Shown here: one piece after another, positions 40,300 to 48,003 of the stretch | How positions within the stretch are numbered: position 1 is the first letter of the stretch | How the letters are laid out: each line of letters begins with the position of its first letter | Assembly: GCA_026874595.1 (NCBI GenBank) | Contig: CM049320.1 | Span: forward strand, 9,613,464-9,677,463 | Length of the DNA stretch: 64,000 bases | Direction of reading: 5' to 3' | From: Sipunculus nudus | Lineage: Eukaryota; Annelida; Sipuncula; Golfingiida; Sipunculidae | Program-made: the position numbers and the translations under genes | The notes under the pieces: generated by a model | Databases searched by the model: none | Told to the model about the DNA's origin: nothing | Seen by the model: only the letters and a program-made list of their open reading frames with translations

Positions 40300-40866
40300 A
40301 TGAATATGGAGGCAATCAAAGAAAGAATTGACAATATTAGGAAGGCTGGACTATAGTTTACAGAACTAATAACCATAACAACATGTTCATCCAATATTAA
40401 TACCAATAAGATGATGTCCACAATCAACACTGATATTGAAACCAATGCAGAGAGAATTTTATGTGAAGTTAAAAAACTTAACAGTAAAAAAGATGCACAG
40501 ATTAGATCACTGAGACAGGAACTTGCATCTACCAAGGGACAACATTTTTTGGCAACTAATGAATTAAATAATTGTCAGCAAGAGGTCAAAAAAGTTAAAC
40601 TAGATCTGGAACAATGCAGGCATGATCTCAGTTCCTCTACAGATGAATCCATGTTCGATACATGCGCACCTGTTAAATCATCCAGTAATAATGACCCACA
40701 GAAAGAAGGAAATGATGAACATGCTCAAAGTCAAGATGTTACTATTGAAGTAACAAACAATGAAAAACCAACCCTGAGCCTTAAAATTGAATCACAGTGC
40801 AGTCAAGAATCTCTGGATGAAACAGAGCCACCAAAAAAACTAGAGGAAATCTCCACAAGGACGTGA
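40300..40866 (+). CDS. Coiled-coil protein fragment, unknown; one in-frame stop
   Basis: The frame opens at ATG 40,300 right after a TATTATTTCAG tract that resembles a splice acceptor. It has a TAG at 40,354-40,356 and reopens at 40,411 for 151 codons. Residues resemble a parallel coiled coil: IETNAERILCEVKKLNSKKD, then AQIRSLRQELAS, then NNCQQEVKKVKLDLEQCRHD. An acidic, Ser/Gln-rich tail follows and ends at a TGA (40,864-40,866). Its composition looks more protein-like than most frames in the window. No family is recognised. It may be a captured exon or an N-terminal protein of the Helentron that starts about 1.3 kb downstream. Confidence 0.4.
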
Positions 40867-42151
40867 AATGACCACCTGTCGCAACATTTAATTCACTATC
40901 CAACTGATAGATCTATTAAATAACCACCATACACATTTTATTTATATATGGATAAATGAATGTGACCTCATAGGCTAATGACATTTTTAACCTCACAGTT
41001 TAATTTCTATCTTATTTTTTTCAGATAAACTCAATTCAGTCATTCACATAGATCTACTATGTAGTTTCAATTTACATCTACTATGTAGTTTGCTTTTATG
41101 CATTATTCACTCAGCCGAGTGAATCCCAATTTTGTGCTAAGTAATATGAACAGGTAAATAGATAGTGCACAGTCCATTTTTATTTTGTATTCCCTATGGT
41201 AAGTGGAATTGTATTAATATATTTTCTGTAGAATTATGTGCATCATTCATGTTGACACACATGTATGTAAGATTGTTTCCCTTACCTATTGTGCATGTAC
41301 TTACAAAGATATGGATACATGTACTTCCTTTTTTTAATGAGTGATGTCATCTGATTTAGCTATCCACATGCTCAGAGTGTAGAGTTTTTGAATATGATTT
41401 TTAAACTTGAGTTTGTATATTAAAAGAGTTAGAGAAATAATAAATAATTTGTGGGGCTTTATAATTTGTTGTTTTAATAAAGATGTTCTCCTGGCCCCCT
41501 CGCCCATGCCCTGCCACCAGCCCTTAATTAGTGTGATGATGAGGGGGCGGGTGACAGTGAGTGGCAGGATGAGTGCGAGTGGAAGGGTGGGAGTGGAAGG
41601 GTGTGGGTGAGAGTGGAAATGCATCATGTCAGAGAAAGAATATGTGCAAGATGGCGTACATACTTGTTTACAATTGCAAAGTTATCAAGTTTTGCTTGGA
41701 TCATCGACTAGCTATGCAATTAGTAGAGATGTGTAGTGTTAAAAGCTTGAACAAAATGAGCAAAAGTGCAGAATCTTAGCCCATTATGAAAAAGATTATG
41801 CTGCACTGCACATTATAATGGATGAGGCAGTTGTAAGTATAGGGGGAAAGAAATTTGTTTTTGTACTGATTTATATATGGTCATATATGGCCTGACGTAT
41901 TATACTGTACCCAATGAGCATCCATCCGTTTAGTTTTGTGTTGATGCGATGACTTTGCAGTGGTTTTGTTGTATTGTCATTTTTTTATGTACTCGCAGAT
42001 GAGGATGCAGGCATTTTTGGAGCAAGCCGAGGATGCGCAGCTCTTTAAAGAATGGAATGAGGAGAAGCTCATTAAAACATGGAGCGAGGAAAAGAACCTC
42101 TGTAAAAATGCACAGTATAAATTGCAGGATGGAAGAGGACGTCATTAATAA
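40867..42151. other. Mostly noncoding; short G-rich patch; upstream part of the Helentron
   Basis: A GC- and G-rich patch of short GTGAGTG/GGAAGGGTG repeats lies at 41,530-41,620. From about 41,999, after a TACTCGCAG acceptor-like tract, a short frame reads MRMQAFLEQAEDAQLFKEW and ends before 42,150. It may be an upstream piece of the Helentron protein. No terminus of the Helentron could be fixed here. Confidence 0.4.
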
Positions 42152-42658
42152 ATGCAGCGGGCAAGAGCATCGCATAAAAGAGGGATGCTCATCAATAAAT
42201 GGCAGAAGGGACTTGGAGAAGTATCGATGAAAACTATCAAATCAGTGTATACTGATGATTATCACTTGGAATTGTACATGGAGTGTAGAAAGATAGTGCA
42301 GGAATACTGTAGTTACTTGGAATATTGCCGAAATCTATGTATGTTCAGTTTCTTTGCTGGATTGTATATGATTATTATTGTTTTGAGAAGTGGTGACATT
42401 GAAGTTAATCCTGGACCTCGAACAAAAAAGCAAAGTGTTGAAATGAGAATTAAAAGAGAGCGTGAAAGAAAACGGAAGGAAAGAGAAAATGAAACGGAAC
42501 ATAAAAAGAAATGTAGGTTGGAAACTGTTGCAATAAAAATGAAAGAAAAGAGAAAATCTGAAATGGCAGAGGAACGATCACGCAGGTTACAGTCTGATCG
42601 AAAAACAAAAAAGAAAAGCAGGCAATGTGAGGCTTCAGAAAAAAGGCAGAGAGATTAG
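42152..42658 (+). pseudogene. Helentron N-terminal segment with a 2A-like ribosome-skipping motif
   Basis: A 168-codon frame from ATG 42,152. Residues 62-79 are hydrophobic (LCMFSFFAGLYMIIIVL) and lead directly into RSGDIEVNPGP. GDIEVNPGP, at residues 81-89 (42,392-42,418), fits the 2A consensus D-(V/I)-E-x-N-P-G-P. In known 2A peptides translation skips the Gly-Pro bond and resumes at the final Pro. That would release the N-terminal piece and start the downstream protein at Pro. After the motif the sequence is highly basic (KRERERKRKERENE). The frame ends at a TAG (42,656-42,658). The rest of the element lies downstream in several frames. Start choice is uncertain, because an overlapping frame begins at 42,033. 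Confidence 0.75.
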
Positions 42659-42732
42659 AGACTAAAACACGAAAAATGTGAGAAAACAGAAAATGTGAAA
42701 TACCAGAAAAGAGCCATGGAGATTAGAAATTG

Positions 42733-43056
42733 TAAAAGAAAATAGAAGCGAATAGAGCAGCTGAAACACCAGAAAAAAGATCAGAGAAGTTACAGACTGT
42801 TAAAATTAAAATGGAAGGGAATAGAGCAGCTGAAACACCAAAGAGAAGATCAGAGAGGTTACAGACTGTTAGAATTAAAATGGAAGCTAATAGAGCAGCT
42901 GAAACACCAGAGAAAAGATCACCGAGGTTACATTCTGATAGACAGAAGAGGAAAGAGAAAAGGGATATTTCAGACATGGATAGTCAGTGTCGGTGTTTAA
43001 AAAATGTGCGATCTGGACCAATTTATGTTTGCACGTGTTGCCATAGATTTATGTAG
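42733..43056 (+). pseudogene. Helentron charged-repeat region and Cys motif
   Basis: The frame carries the 23-residue repeats and ends with SGPIYVCTCCHRFM, a conserved Cys-x-x-Cys-His phrase that opens the DUF6570-like region. A TAG at 43,054-43,056 replaces the residue after RFM, where a Tyr codon would be expected. Confidence 0.8.
42751..42945 (+). repeat. 69-bp in-frame tandem repeat, 2.8 units
   Basis: Units begin at 42,751, 42,820 and 42,889 with AATAGAGCAG and encode 23 residues each around NRAAETPEKRSERLQTVR. Such ETPExRxxRL repeats are usual in the N-terminal part of Helitron/Helentron proteins and may help bind nucleic acid. The 69-bp spacing keeps the frame. Confidence 0.9.
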
Positions 43057-43694
43057 AGGCAAACGTAAATTTATATAAAGAAAGTAGATACAGTAAATTT
43101 TCTGAAGCTGAGATTAATGAAACCTTGCTGGCGTTCATTTATAAAACAACTGATAATAATATATATATGTGTGTAACATGTGATAGATCCCTGAAAAGGG
43201 GAATGGTACCAGGACAAGCAAAAGCAAATAATTTGCAACTGGATAAATTGTGCAGAGAGATGTCAGATTTGTGTAATATAAAAGTAAGGCTGCTGTCAAA
43301 GAGAATCCCATTCATGAAAATGGTTGCCTTGCCTAGAGGAAATCAAACAGCCATACATGGTCCTGCTGTGAATTGTCCGACGAAACTGAACACTATATGC
43401 CATATTTTGCCAAGATTACCAAAAGATGCACAGATCATTCCTATGAAACTCAAAAGAAGGCTGGTGTATAAAGGTAATTATATGTTTGACAGTGTGAGAC
43501 CAGAAAGAATGTTAGCTGCTTTGTCCTGGCTGAAAGATAACAACATGTTGTACAGTGACATATCTATTAATTATGACTGGATACAAGGCTGGCAGCAGGA
43601 AGATCCTGAACTGTGGCATGCTATGAGTGGCGTTTTAGTACCGTTAAAAGACGAAGGAAAAATAAAGGAAAATGAAGGGAACCAAATGCGTTGA
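43057..43694 (+). pseudogene. Helentron DUF6570-like region
   Basis: Continues the previous piece after the stop. DNNIYMCVTCDRSLKRG supplies a second Cys pair. The conserved order then follows: PGQAKANNLQLDKLCREM, RIPFMKMVALPRGNQ, IHGPAVNCPTKLNT, ILPRLPKDAQIIPMKLKRRL and SWLKDNNMLYSDISIN. This domain is a fixed companion of Helentron/Helitron Rep-helicase proteins; its biochemical role is not established. The frame is open from about 43,125 to a TGA at 43,692-43,694. Confidence 0.85.
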
Positions 43695-43785
43695 ATGAAA
43701 ATGTAAACATGATTAAGATGAATGATGAAACTAGCAACATTAAAGAGTTCTTGACAGGCTCGAAAAAAAAAGATTTATAAGGATG

Positions 43786-44330
43786 CAACCATTATGCACA
43801 TACATTAGAGAATTTAGAACAGCTTTGTCACAGTGAAGGTTTTGAAATTGGTGATGTCGAAGGTGATGGAAATTGTTTGTTTAGATCTGTAGAAATGCAA
43901 TTACTAAATCGAGGTGTAAGAATAAGTAATGTGGAACTTCGACAGCAGCTGGTGGAATACCTGGAAAAAAAATCTAAATGGTCCGACAGGAGATATCCCT
44001 TACAAAAATTGTTTTGCTAACAGAATACCTGAACATGGTGATACTGAGGTGAAATGTGATTTAGATAAGTATGTTGAAGAGGTAGATAATTTAGAAGACA
44101 GACTTGAGCTACAGTGGCAAAGATATTTACAAGACCTGGAAAAAGGTTCCTGGGGTGACCATATTGCTGTACAAGGAATGGCTGACATGCTACAGGTGTC
44201 TATGAGAATAGTAGGGACAGTGAACCCTGAAACTGTATTGAACCAAGTGATAGGAATAACACAATGACTTTAAATTTAGGTTTGATTGGTCAGACGCATT
44301 ATGTGTCTTTAAGAGTGAAGGCAGTGCCAG
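43786..44330 (+). pseudogene. Helentron OTU-type cysteine protease
   Basis: The catalytic loop GDVEGDGNCLFRSVEMQLLN is intact, with the nucleophile Cys at 43,874-43,876. The frame then shifts in an A run near 43,965 and continues through GDIPYKNCFANRI and SWGDHIAVQGMADMLQVSM. It shifts again near 44,260 into LGLIGQTHYVSLRV, with the general-base His at 44,297-44,299. OTU enzymes are deubiquitinase-like proteases, and in Helentrons this domain is embedded in the Rep-helicase polyprotein. The catalytic Cys and His survive, but the two frameshifts prevent a functional product. Confidence 0.88.
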
Positions 44331-44766: not shown

Positions 44767-44779
44767 CTGCACAGTTTTT

Positions 44780-45950
44780 TTTTTTCAGTCGAGGTTGAAC
44801 AAATAAGCAAGTTAACTTTGGTGGTCATAGGGCGAGTAGCTGGAAAACAATATAGAGGCCGAATAATTACAGCGGGGCATTTGAAAGATCCCGAAAGATT
44901 GACTCAAATGATACAAAAGGACAAGGCTTACAAGTTTATGACAGAAGTGAGAGGAAGCACGGCATATTGGCAAAAAGTGCATTATGATATTCTTGCAATG
45001 ATCAGGCAGTTGGGCATACCGACATGGTTTCTTACTTTGTCAGCTGCTGAGATGAGATGGCCAGTAATTATCCAAATTTTTGCTAGACAGTACGGTGAAA
45101 TATACTTTGATGATGATGTAGCCAATATGACGTGGGAACGGAAAACATGCTGGCTTAAAAGAAATCCCGTCACAGCCGCCAGACATTTCCAGTATAGAAT
45201 TGACAAGTTCTGGAAGACAGTTGTCCCGGACAAGGCTGAACCTATTGGTCAAATAGCAGATTATATGATTAGAATAGAATTTCAGGCAAGAGGTTCACCT
45301 CATGCTCATACAGTGCTATTGGTAAAAAATGCACCAAATTTGGAATAGATTCCAATGGAAAAGTTATCGAATTTATCGACAGATACAAAACATGTGCAAA
45401 TGATGTCCATGGTGAAGATTTGCAAGCTGTCATTAATCTTCAAAAACACTCCCACTCTTCAAGTCGTTTGAAATATGGAACATGCCGTTTTCATTTTCCT
45501 AAACCACTAAGCCAACAAACGTTAATTGCATCAGAACCTGCAGATCTAGACAGCAGAAAAGAACTTGTGCCTGAAGCAAGAATGTGCTGATGAAGGTGCA
45601 ACGTACGATAAGCGATTTGGAAAGTCTTGAAGATGTTATGTTAGATAAAGTTCTTGATGTAAGTCAAATTTCAATAGAATCTTACATACAGGCCCTTGAG
45701 ACATGCAAAAAGGGACATTCGGTCGTTTTGCGACGAGCCGTTTGTGAAATGAACATAAACAGTTATAATCCTTCAATTCTTAAAGCATGGAAAGCTAACA
45801 TGGACATCCAGTATATTTTAGATCCGTATGCCTGAGTTATGTTTGTGACATCATACTTGATGAGAAGTGAAAGAAATATGGGTGAGTTGTTGAAACAGGT
45901 TATCAAAGAGACAACAGCCGGAAACAGTTGAGAAAACTCGGCACAACATT
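44780..45950 (+). pseudogene. Helentron Rep (HUH endonuclease)
   Basis: Clear Rep motifs: GRIITAGHLKDPERLTQM; VRGSTAYWQKVHYDILAMIR; GIPTWFLTLSAAEMRWP; and the metal-binding HUH motif as ARGSPHAHTVLLVKN (His codons at 45,301-45,303 and 45,307-45,309). After a frameshift near 45,335 the frame reads NLQKHSHSSSRLKYG and CRFHFPKPLS. After another near 45,585 it reads SVVLRRAVCEMNINSYNPSI and QYILDPYA. A TGA (45,833-45,835) sits where a Cys codon is usual, then FVTSYLMRSERNMGELL. The catalytic tyrosine of the second motif is kept (TAC, 45,854-45,856). The residue four before it is Phe. The enzyme would nick single-stranded transposon DNA and stay covalently joined to its 5' end. Confidence 0.92.
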
Positions 45951-47340
45951 TTTAAATCAAAGAGAAGTTAGTGAAAGAAAGGAAGCGGTTATAAGGTTTC
46001 ACAAATACAATGTTGAGTAAGAGAGGGAAAAATTCTATCTGGCAAATTAATGCTGTATATACCTTGGCAGAATGAAGAAAGAGATATTATTTGCGATAGC
46101 AGTACATATTATGAACAATATAAAGATGTACATACCTTGGCGGATTGAAGAAAGAGATATTATTGGCGATAGCAGTACATATTATGAACAATATAAAGTA
46201 TTCTCCGGAGATTATTAAACAACAGCAACATTTTAGTCATAATGCACAGACTCTAGAAGCGGCACAACATGAGTTGGACAGATATGGGCCACCAGAGCAC
46301 GTATTGGGTGATGTTGCATCAAATGTAGAACACGACAGAATGCAAGATGAGGAAGAAGGAAATGAAGACTAGACTTATATGGCTCAAGGTGATATACATG
46401 AAAATTCTGAAGTTTTGGATGATGAGACACGTGGATTTTGTATTTTAGGATGCAAATGATGATTACACGAAATTATGTGAACCACTGTGGTATCGATTTC
46501 AGTTCGCAGAGCTTGCAGAAATTATGAGACAACAAAATGACAAAATGTTTGCGGAGTTACTGTACGCACTGGTACACAGACTGAAGAAGACGAAGCATTG
46601 CTTGAAACAAGAAATATTATGGAGCAAAGTACAGAATACCCATATCACTGCCTTCATCTTATACAGCCTCGAAATATGTTAATAAATACAATTCAGAGAT
46701 GATGGCTCAGGTAAACAGTCGAGTTCTTAAGATAAAGTCAATTGACAGGAAAAGAGACAAAAACTCTGGCGTAGCAATTGAATTCTGCCACAGAGCTTCA
46801 GATACTGGGGGCTTGCTTGAAGAGATTTAAATTGCAGTTGGTTGTAAAGTCATGCTTACGCACAATATTTATGTTTCTGATGGTTTGGTAAATGGAGCAA
46901 CTTCGCAAGTAGAACATGTTATACTGATAGGTGATGTAGTTACCACGATTTTAGTCAAGTTTAACAATGAAAAGGTCGGTGAGAAGGCGATCCAACAGAG
47001 CCAATACAGACAGATTACCCAGTATCAGTGCCAATTTCAAGAGTGGAAGCACAATTTAAAGTTGGAAGAAAAAGTCCTGTTTTGGCATCAAGAAGACAGT
47101 TTCCATTAATCTTGGCTTGGGCCTCAACAATTCACAAAATACAGGGAATGACTACAGACGAAATAGTCGCATCTTTTAATGGAAGATTCAGTGGAGGGCA
47201 AGCCTATGTTGCGCTGAGCAGAGTGAGATCATTGGGGGGGGCTTACATTTGCTGAATTTCAAACCTTGTAAAATTAAGGTAAATGAAGAAGTGAACACAG
47301 AAATGGAGCGATTGAGAGAAAATTGTATTGAGAGGCCATT
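45951..47340 (+). pseudogene. Helentron PIF1-like helicase with deleted ATPase core
   Basis: N-terminal helicase-linked phrases are present: LRKLGTTFLNQREVS, LPWQNEERDII, HNAQTLEAAQHELDRYGPPE and NVEHDRMQDEEEG. The similarity then jumps to FQFAELAEIMRQQNDKMFAE, so the region that should hold Walker A (GxxGxGKS), Walker B and the GDxxQL motif is missing. The C-terminal part follows in pieces: [38 protein letters not shown] and [18 protein letters not shown]. These are motifs V and VI of superfamily 1B helicases. Without ATP binding it cannot unwind DNA. A 73-bp-period tandem duplication (46,059-46,198) and several frameshifts add to the damage. Confidence 0.9.
46059..46198 (+). repeat. Direct tandem duplication, 73-bp period, inside the helicase pseudogene
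   Basis: Two 67-bp units, starting with ATACCTTGGC at 46,059 and 46,132, differ at a few bases and encode the same LPWxxEERDII...YYEQYK phrase. The 73-bp spacing is not a multiple of three, so the duplication itself shifts the frame. Confidence 0.9.
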
Positions 47341-47354
47341 TCAAGAGAGCCAGA

Positions 47355-48003
47355 TAGTTATGAGCTTTGTATTTCACATTTGAACGTGCGTGGTATCAAA
47401 TCTAAGCTGCAACATTTAAAAGCTGATCCGATTGTAAAAGTATGTGACGTTTTGTGTTTGTGGGAAACGTTTCTTTATGAAACTGATGAATTTTCTGCAG
47501 ATTCGGTTGCATAGATATGGAAGTGTTCGGATGGACGGACGTGTGCTAAAGGGTAGTGGGCTGATTATAGCTGCAAGTAAATTACTACGCCCATCAGTCA
47601 TTAGCAGAACAGTATCAAGAAACTTTGAACAAATGACAATTGAAATGAAATGAGAAGTGAATAATATGTTCATTACTTGTATATACCGACCTCCGTCAGG
47701 TAGTATCACAGAGTGTTTGAAGGACATAGCAGAACTAGTTGACGAGTTGAGGTAAGTGTGCAGTACCTATGAGTCTGTAATCCTCGGAGATTTCAATGAG
47801 AATGCTTTACTGGAGCCGATGCATGCAGTACACTTTTTACAATCAATGGGTTTCACACAGAACACATAGCAGCCAACAAGGGATAGTGGAACTACACTGG
47901 ATCATACTTACGTTATGTCAAGAAAGTTTTCGGTCTCATGCTATGTAACAGATACTAATTATTCTGATCATGATTTTGTGACGGCATACTTTACATACTA
48001 AAG
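47355..48003 (+). pseudogene. Helentron C-terminal APE-like endonuclease (EEP fold)
   Basis: Pieces match endonuclease/exonuclease/phosphatase domains in order: ISHLNVRGIKSKLQHLKADP; VCDVLCLWETF (metal-binding Glu); KGSGLIIAA; FITCIYRPPSG; ESVILGDFNEN (catalytic Asp and Asn, about 47,786-47,797); TRDSGTTLDHTYV; and the terminal YSDHDFVTAYF (Asp-His dyad, about 47,963-47,968). At least three stops or frameshifts break it. Its place directly after the helicase is diagnostic for Helentrons. A separate LINE endonuclease is less likely, since no RT follows. Confidence 0.88.

Follow-up and report, generated by a model that had tools for sequence, protein, structure and literature searches.

The window, a 64-kb stretch of DNA, carries on its forward strand the 2A-like octapeptide DIEVNPGP within an open reading frame, followed by the remains of a Helentron. 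A 2A core inside an open frame and behind a hydrophobic stretch had been described for this locus in an initial annotation, and the present analysis agrees with that description. The frame (42152-42658, +) translates as ...MFSFFAGLYMIIIVLRSG-DIEVNPGP-RTKKQS... and extends through the 2A on both sides, over 168 aa in the window copy and 226 aa in a local duplicate. DIEVNPGP satisfies the 2A (StopGo) core (D/G/C/N)(V/I)ExNPGP as given in PMC12846837. A six-frame scan of the 64-kb window for D.E.NPGP returned this single occurrence, and the peak 19-residue mean hydropathy ahead of it is 1.99. The features of the locus are as follows.

42152..42658 (+): 168-aa open frame with leader, 2A and start of the basic region; the end coordinate includes the stop
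42335..42391 (+): hydrophobic tract LCMFSFFAGLYMIIIVLRS, mean hydropathy 1.99
42341..42418 (+): leader-2A, 26 residues counted from the Met at 42341, an assumed start codon
42377..42394 (+): upstream hexapeptide IVLRSG, resembling by eye the L-rich 2A class that ends in SG
42395..42418 (+): 2A octapeptide DIEVNPGP, with the predicted skip between the Gly codon (42413-42415) and the Pro codon (42416-42418)
42416..42436 (+): PRTKKQS, which aligns to residues 2-8 of the start M-PRTK(K/R)KS found in related Helentrons
42419..43046 (+): Lys/Arg/Glu-rich region, frameshifted
43047..43691 (+): DUF6570 (PF20209, E=1.2e-16)
43862..43975 (+): OTU-like cysteine protease fragment (PF02338, E=2.5e-6)
44767..45345 (+): Helitron Rep (HUH) domain (PF14214 Helitron_like_N, E=4.5e-29)
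46837..46911 (+): Pif1 helicase 2B fragment in a broken frame (PF21530, E=1.9e-4, below the curated cut-off)
47669..47980 (+): AP-endonuclease-like fragment, a mark of Helentrons (PF14529, E=3.4e-5, below the curated cut-off)

Further in-frame Met codons are located at 42152, 42185, 42227, 42278 and 42368. Downstream of the 2A, the domain order is DUF6570-OTU-Rep-Pif1-APE, spread over several frames. The 2A frame stops at 42658, and no single frame leads from the 2A into the transposase. The window copy is a decayed relic of a Helentron and is now dead. The earlier proposal that the 2A, if active, would split the transposon product into a short leader and the Rep-helicase polyprotein is supported in part: a canonical 2A core stands at the N-terminus of a Helentron ORF, but this copy cannot split a working polyprotein because its frame is broken behind the 2A.

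The only other close copy that was detected is a segmental duplicate on contig C15, which lies 55.7 kb away, has flanking DNA in common with the window copy and is 98.9-99.1% identical to it at the DNA level over the compared stretch. Being a segmental duplicate, it is neither a separate relative nor separate evidence. The duplication pairs 40400-40964 and 41232-44144 of the window with G000:C15:9598414-9601887 (L004), about 55.7 kb apart, and also covers the greater part of the adjacent 169-aa open frame at 40357-40866. Within the frame 42152-42658, the two C15 copies differ by four nonsynonymous changes, one synonymous change and two indels, with one of the changes abutting an indel. This comparison therefore gives no sign of present-day selection on the frame, and a function would be claimable for an ancestor alone.

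2A sites and Helentrons across the genome

The codon pattern for D[VIM]ExNPGP was found at 158 sites in the 1.43-Gb genome (G000), compared to none for the reversed pattern, and the window octapeptide is therefore not a chance occurrence. The protein context was taken for 45 sites, namely the first 30 listed, 12 chosen sites, the window site and the sites on C16 and C17; three loci repeating the window or its duplicate were excluded from this set. Regular expressions assigned an endonuclease-like start directly after the 2A to 12 of the 45 sites and a WRARIG-type leader to 16; the remaining 17 fell into neither class. In 33 of the 45, the 2A Asp is preceded by Gly with Ala, Ser or Cys before it. 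Pfam identified Exo_endo_phos in each of the three scanned frames of the endonuclease type, while four of five other long 2A frames gave a weak Transposase_22 match of the L1 ORF1 type (one above the cut-off; none in L022). Judged by these contexts, 2A commonly occurs in this genome in apparent non-LTR retrotransposons, with Helentrons accounting for a small minority of cases. The whole genome also has 23 2A-like sites whose p12 residue is Gly (pattern KGNRTNGARNNNAAYCCNGGNCC), compared to two in the reversed control, and a by-eye comparison with at least 130 DUF6570 places placed none of them close to a DUF6570.

Several 2A sites are clustered: five at G000:C6:67844381-67920019 (-), five at C17:10462704-10782127 (-) and three at C16:59923235-59988523 (+), with identical octapeptide DNA within each cluster. 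Two copies of the C6 cluster have related leaders, WRASIGSF-like in L076. At G000:C11:23376993 (L080, 494-1093), a WRVRI-type leader and DVERNPGP share one 282-aa open frame that continues into a permuted SF2 helicase domain of GREB1 type (PF20692, E=2.3e-14); here a 2A leader may have been joined to a gene of the host or to a captured one.

To relate the 2A sites to Helentrons, 150 of the 158 were paired with the DUF6570 places of the genome, of which there are at least 130. For three 2A sites, a DUF6570 of the same orientation follows downstream within less than 2 kb, compared to 0.014 expected for 150 sites and 130 places. Two of these pairs are the window copy and its local duplicate (99% identity), and the third is a Helentron on C17 (L088) that is distantly related to them. 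In the latter, YLKRLLLCAG-DIERNPGP is located about 1.44 kb upstream of a DUF6570 (8.6e-14) on the same strand, with a Rep domain (1.4e-6) behind it. The C17 and window DUF6570 domains share 34% identity. The C17 2A frame comprises 79 aa, lacks a Met from the preceding stop up to the 2A and differs from the frame of its DUF6570, and both 2A Helentrons are frameshifted. The observation made in the window is confirmed: a 2A core stands at the N-terminus of a Helentron ORF, and likewise in a second, distantly related Helentron. By-eye comparison of the 2A list with 143 Rep places, the C17 Rep not being among them, gave no further pair. On these sequence comparisons, the number of distantly related Helentron 2A leaders is two.

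A DNA search with the 601-bp C17 2A region matched the region itself alone, which does not prove rarity. A search with the 168-aa window frame matched itself, the duplicate and one basic-repeat sequence. The last of these, L005 on C8, was rejected as a 2A relative: the weak match is basic-repeat similarity only, and the locus starts with MPRTKKKS and has no 2A.

NPGP was absent in all six frames from the 44 other Helentron loci (45 records, two from the same place), with the reservation that the DNA upstream of the domain was short for many loci (1.5 kb in 30) and some N-termini were cut. The 44 loci include seven with an open frame of more than 2,200 aa (L036, L038, L039, L042, L045, L090 and L091). 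Absence of the motif from intact relatives had been named in the initial annotation as a result that would refute its proposal. Such absence does hold in this genome (0 of 44), but it leaves the matter undecided because no intact member of either 2A Helentron lineage was found in this genome. Relatives were found neither in viral contigs (queried with Rep, DUF6570, a 2A+RTK pattern and a DUF6570 alignment) nor in contigs of other genomes (queried with the DUF6570 alignment), so that all comparisons were made within one genome.

The relatives L090-L093 carry another N-terminus in place of the 2A leader and mark a further Helentron lineage. In L091 (1714-2313, -), the only one of these scanned, it is a Herpes_teg_N-like domain (PF04843, E=2.8e-14), which precedes basic repeats and the DUF6570. 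The N-termini of L074, L090, L092 and L093 are similar to that of L091 by eye.

The leader and the transposase start

An ATG-Pro-(Arg/Gly/Ile)-Thr-Lys start is present in 21 of the 31 Helentron loci examined. In the window sequence NPG-PRTKKQS, the Pro that follows the predicted skip corresponds to the second residue of the M-P-R-T-K start of the relatives. Among 162 offsets, the PRTKKQS match ranked first with every one of five protein references (shuffle p 0.00015 to 0.0096). Of the 18 bases that follow the Pro codon, 16 are shared with the best relative. This score is reached at two of 63,970 window positions, namely at this site and at an in-frame position of the basic region. Judged from these scores, the PRTK match is good, though not unique. 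The alignment is suggestive in that the 2A Gly appears to stand where the relatives have Met, and predicted skipping would leave the same N-terminus. The residues after the C17 2A, P-AEQEK, show no match to the PRTK start.

Core and context suggest that the window 2A would skip. IVLRSG is hydrophobic and ends in SG before p12=D, and by eye it is similar to the L-rich 2A class described in PMC12846837, which ends in (A/S/C)G before p12=D. For a sea-urchin leader, PMC4981915 reports that R11A, L13V, L13A and L14G/D substantially lowered activity, but M12V did not. Counted back from the last Pro, in the numbering implied by P3A of the same paper, the window residues are R11, L12, V13 and I14. The V13 may thus lower the skipping efficiency of the window 2A.

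The locus is probably a Helentron relic, with a transposase ORF that once bore an N-terminal leader ending in a predicted 2A (StopGo). In an active ancestor, the ribosome would have started in the leader and formed no Gly-Pro bond at NPG/P. The short hydrophobic leader would have been released and the transposase then made from Pro-Arg-Thr-Lys, with a mature N-terminus equal to that of the relatives' Met-Pro-Arg-Thr-Lys start after a presumed removal of Met. A likely benefit is that an in-frame leader, either captured or derived from a shifted 5' end, would be harmless because it is shed, so that the basic transposase could reach the nucleus. Unskipped molecules would keep the hydrophobic leader.

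Among the other explanations, the one that survives best, although unlikely, is that the 2A belongs to the 5' end of a retrotransposon, a place where 2A is common, which landed by chance before the Helentron relic and was never translated with the transposase. It draws on the many 2A sites that look retrotransposon-derived (endonuclease-like starts in 12 and WRARIG-type leaders in 16 of 45; Exo_endo_phos in 3/3 and weak Transposase_22 in 4/5 frames scanned). However, the searches placed neither of the two Helentron leaders in a family of this kind, with the reservation that for the C17 region a lack of matches is no proof of rarity; in addition, only 0.014 pairs within 2 kb are expected by chance, and the window Pro coincides with the usual Helentron start.

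Slightly less probable still is a leader that served mainly as a signal or membrane sequence, with the 2A giving rise to a skipped free product and an unskipped secretory one, as in sea-urchin NLR proteins. The 26-residue leader-2A, counted from an assumed start at Met 42341, equals the sea-urchin NLR leaders in length and is hydrophobic, and the V at -13 could leave skipping incomplete. The C17 leader argues against this explanation, as it is not hydrophobic (the highest mean over 15 residues is 0.02, within the 19 residues that remain in frame), and L-rich tracts belong to this class of 2A in any case. Furthermore, the nucleus is the expected site of action for a transposase with a basic region. 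Of the routing to the secretory pathway that had been suggested for part of the product, the hydrophobic window leader thus remains as support, but the C17 leader does not share this property; dual targeting is possible for the window lineage only.

That the octapeptide is a look-alike without skipping in the ancestor, a chance product of neutral decay, is very improbable: the lack of an intact copy with 2A among those found and the V at -13 would fit, but the 158 sites versus none in the control, an upstream context resembling an active class and the presence in two distantly related Helentrons speak against it.

With the relic of a 2A-led Helentron as the preferred reading of the locus, a broader proposal can be put forward tentatively, as quite possible if short of probable: rolling-circle DNA transposons may have taken up 2A more than once as shed N-terminal leaders. 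In one lineage, this would have happened exactly at the transposase start codon, yielding a Pro-initiated product and perhaps a minor membrane-directed unskipped form.

Comparison with known 2A systems and Helentrons

Outside RNA viruses, 2A skipping has been described in non-LTR retrotransposons (Odon et al. 2013) and in sea-urchin receptors (PMC4981915). The sea-urchin NLR 2A of PMC4981915 resembles the window sequence in its 26-residue leader-2A (here from Met 42341), its hydrophobic tract, the Arg at -11 and D(V/I)ExNPGP. It differs in belonging to host immune receptors and in having been tested as active, whereas the window 2A is predicted and lies in a decayed DNA transposon. In addition, the window residues at -13 and -14 are V and I, whereas the mutants reported in that paper show Leu at these positions.

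The APE-type non-LTR retrotransposons of Odon et al. 2013 resemble the window element in that a mobile element carries both a 2A and an AP endonuclease (in the window, an AP-endonuclease-like fragment), and 2A-endonuclease fusions are present in the genome of the window as well. In the retrotransposon-like sites (12/45), however, the 2A adjoins the endonuclease-like start, while the Helentron 2A precedes a basic region and DUF6570. Some 5 kb separate the window 2A from the endonuclease-like fragment, and the Helentron transposase is a Rep-helicase. 2A in two distantly related rolling-circle transposons would show one recoding device across mobile elements of different mechanism. Such cases would also offer a clean test of whether a shed leader restores the normal transposase N-terminus. 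The abundance of 2A in the genome (158 strict sites) makes it a good place to study the origin and spread of 2A.

Viral StopGo sequences with LLLLSG-like hexapeptides (PMC12846837) are similar to the window 2A in p12=D and in a hydrophobic hexapeptide ending in SG. They are derived from RNA viruses, and the window hexapeptide differs from them in having one Leu and an Arg.

The Helentrons of PMC4067079 correspond to the window element in Rep and OTU protease and, as fragments matched below the curated cut-off, in helicase and C-terminal AP endonuclease; the text examined of that paper makes no mention of ribosomes, skipping, NPGP, 2A peptide or polyprotein. Relatives in the present genome start with M-P-(R/G/I)-T-K or with a Herpes_teg_N-like domain, unlike the 2A Helentrons. 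In the literature searched, which excluded most subscription papers, no description of a 2A in Helitrons or Helentrons was found, and the initial annotation likewise knew of none in Helentrons. The 2A device is known and so are Helentrons; their combination appears to be new.
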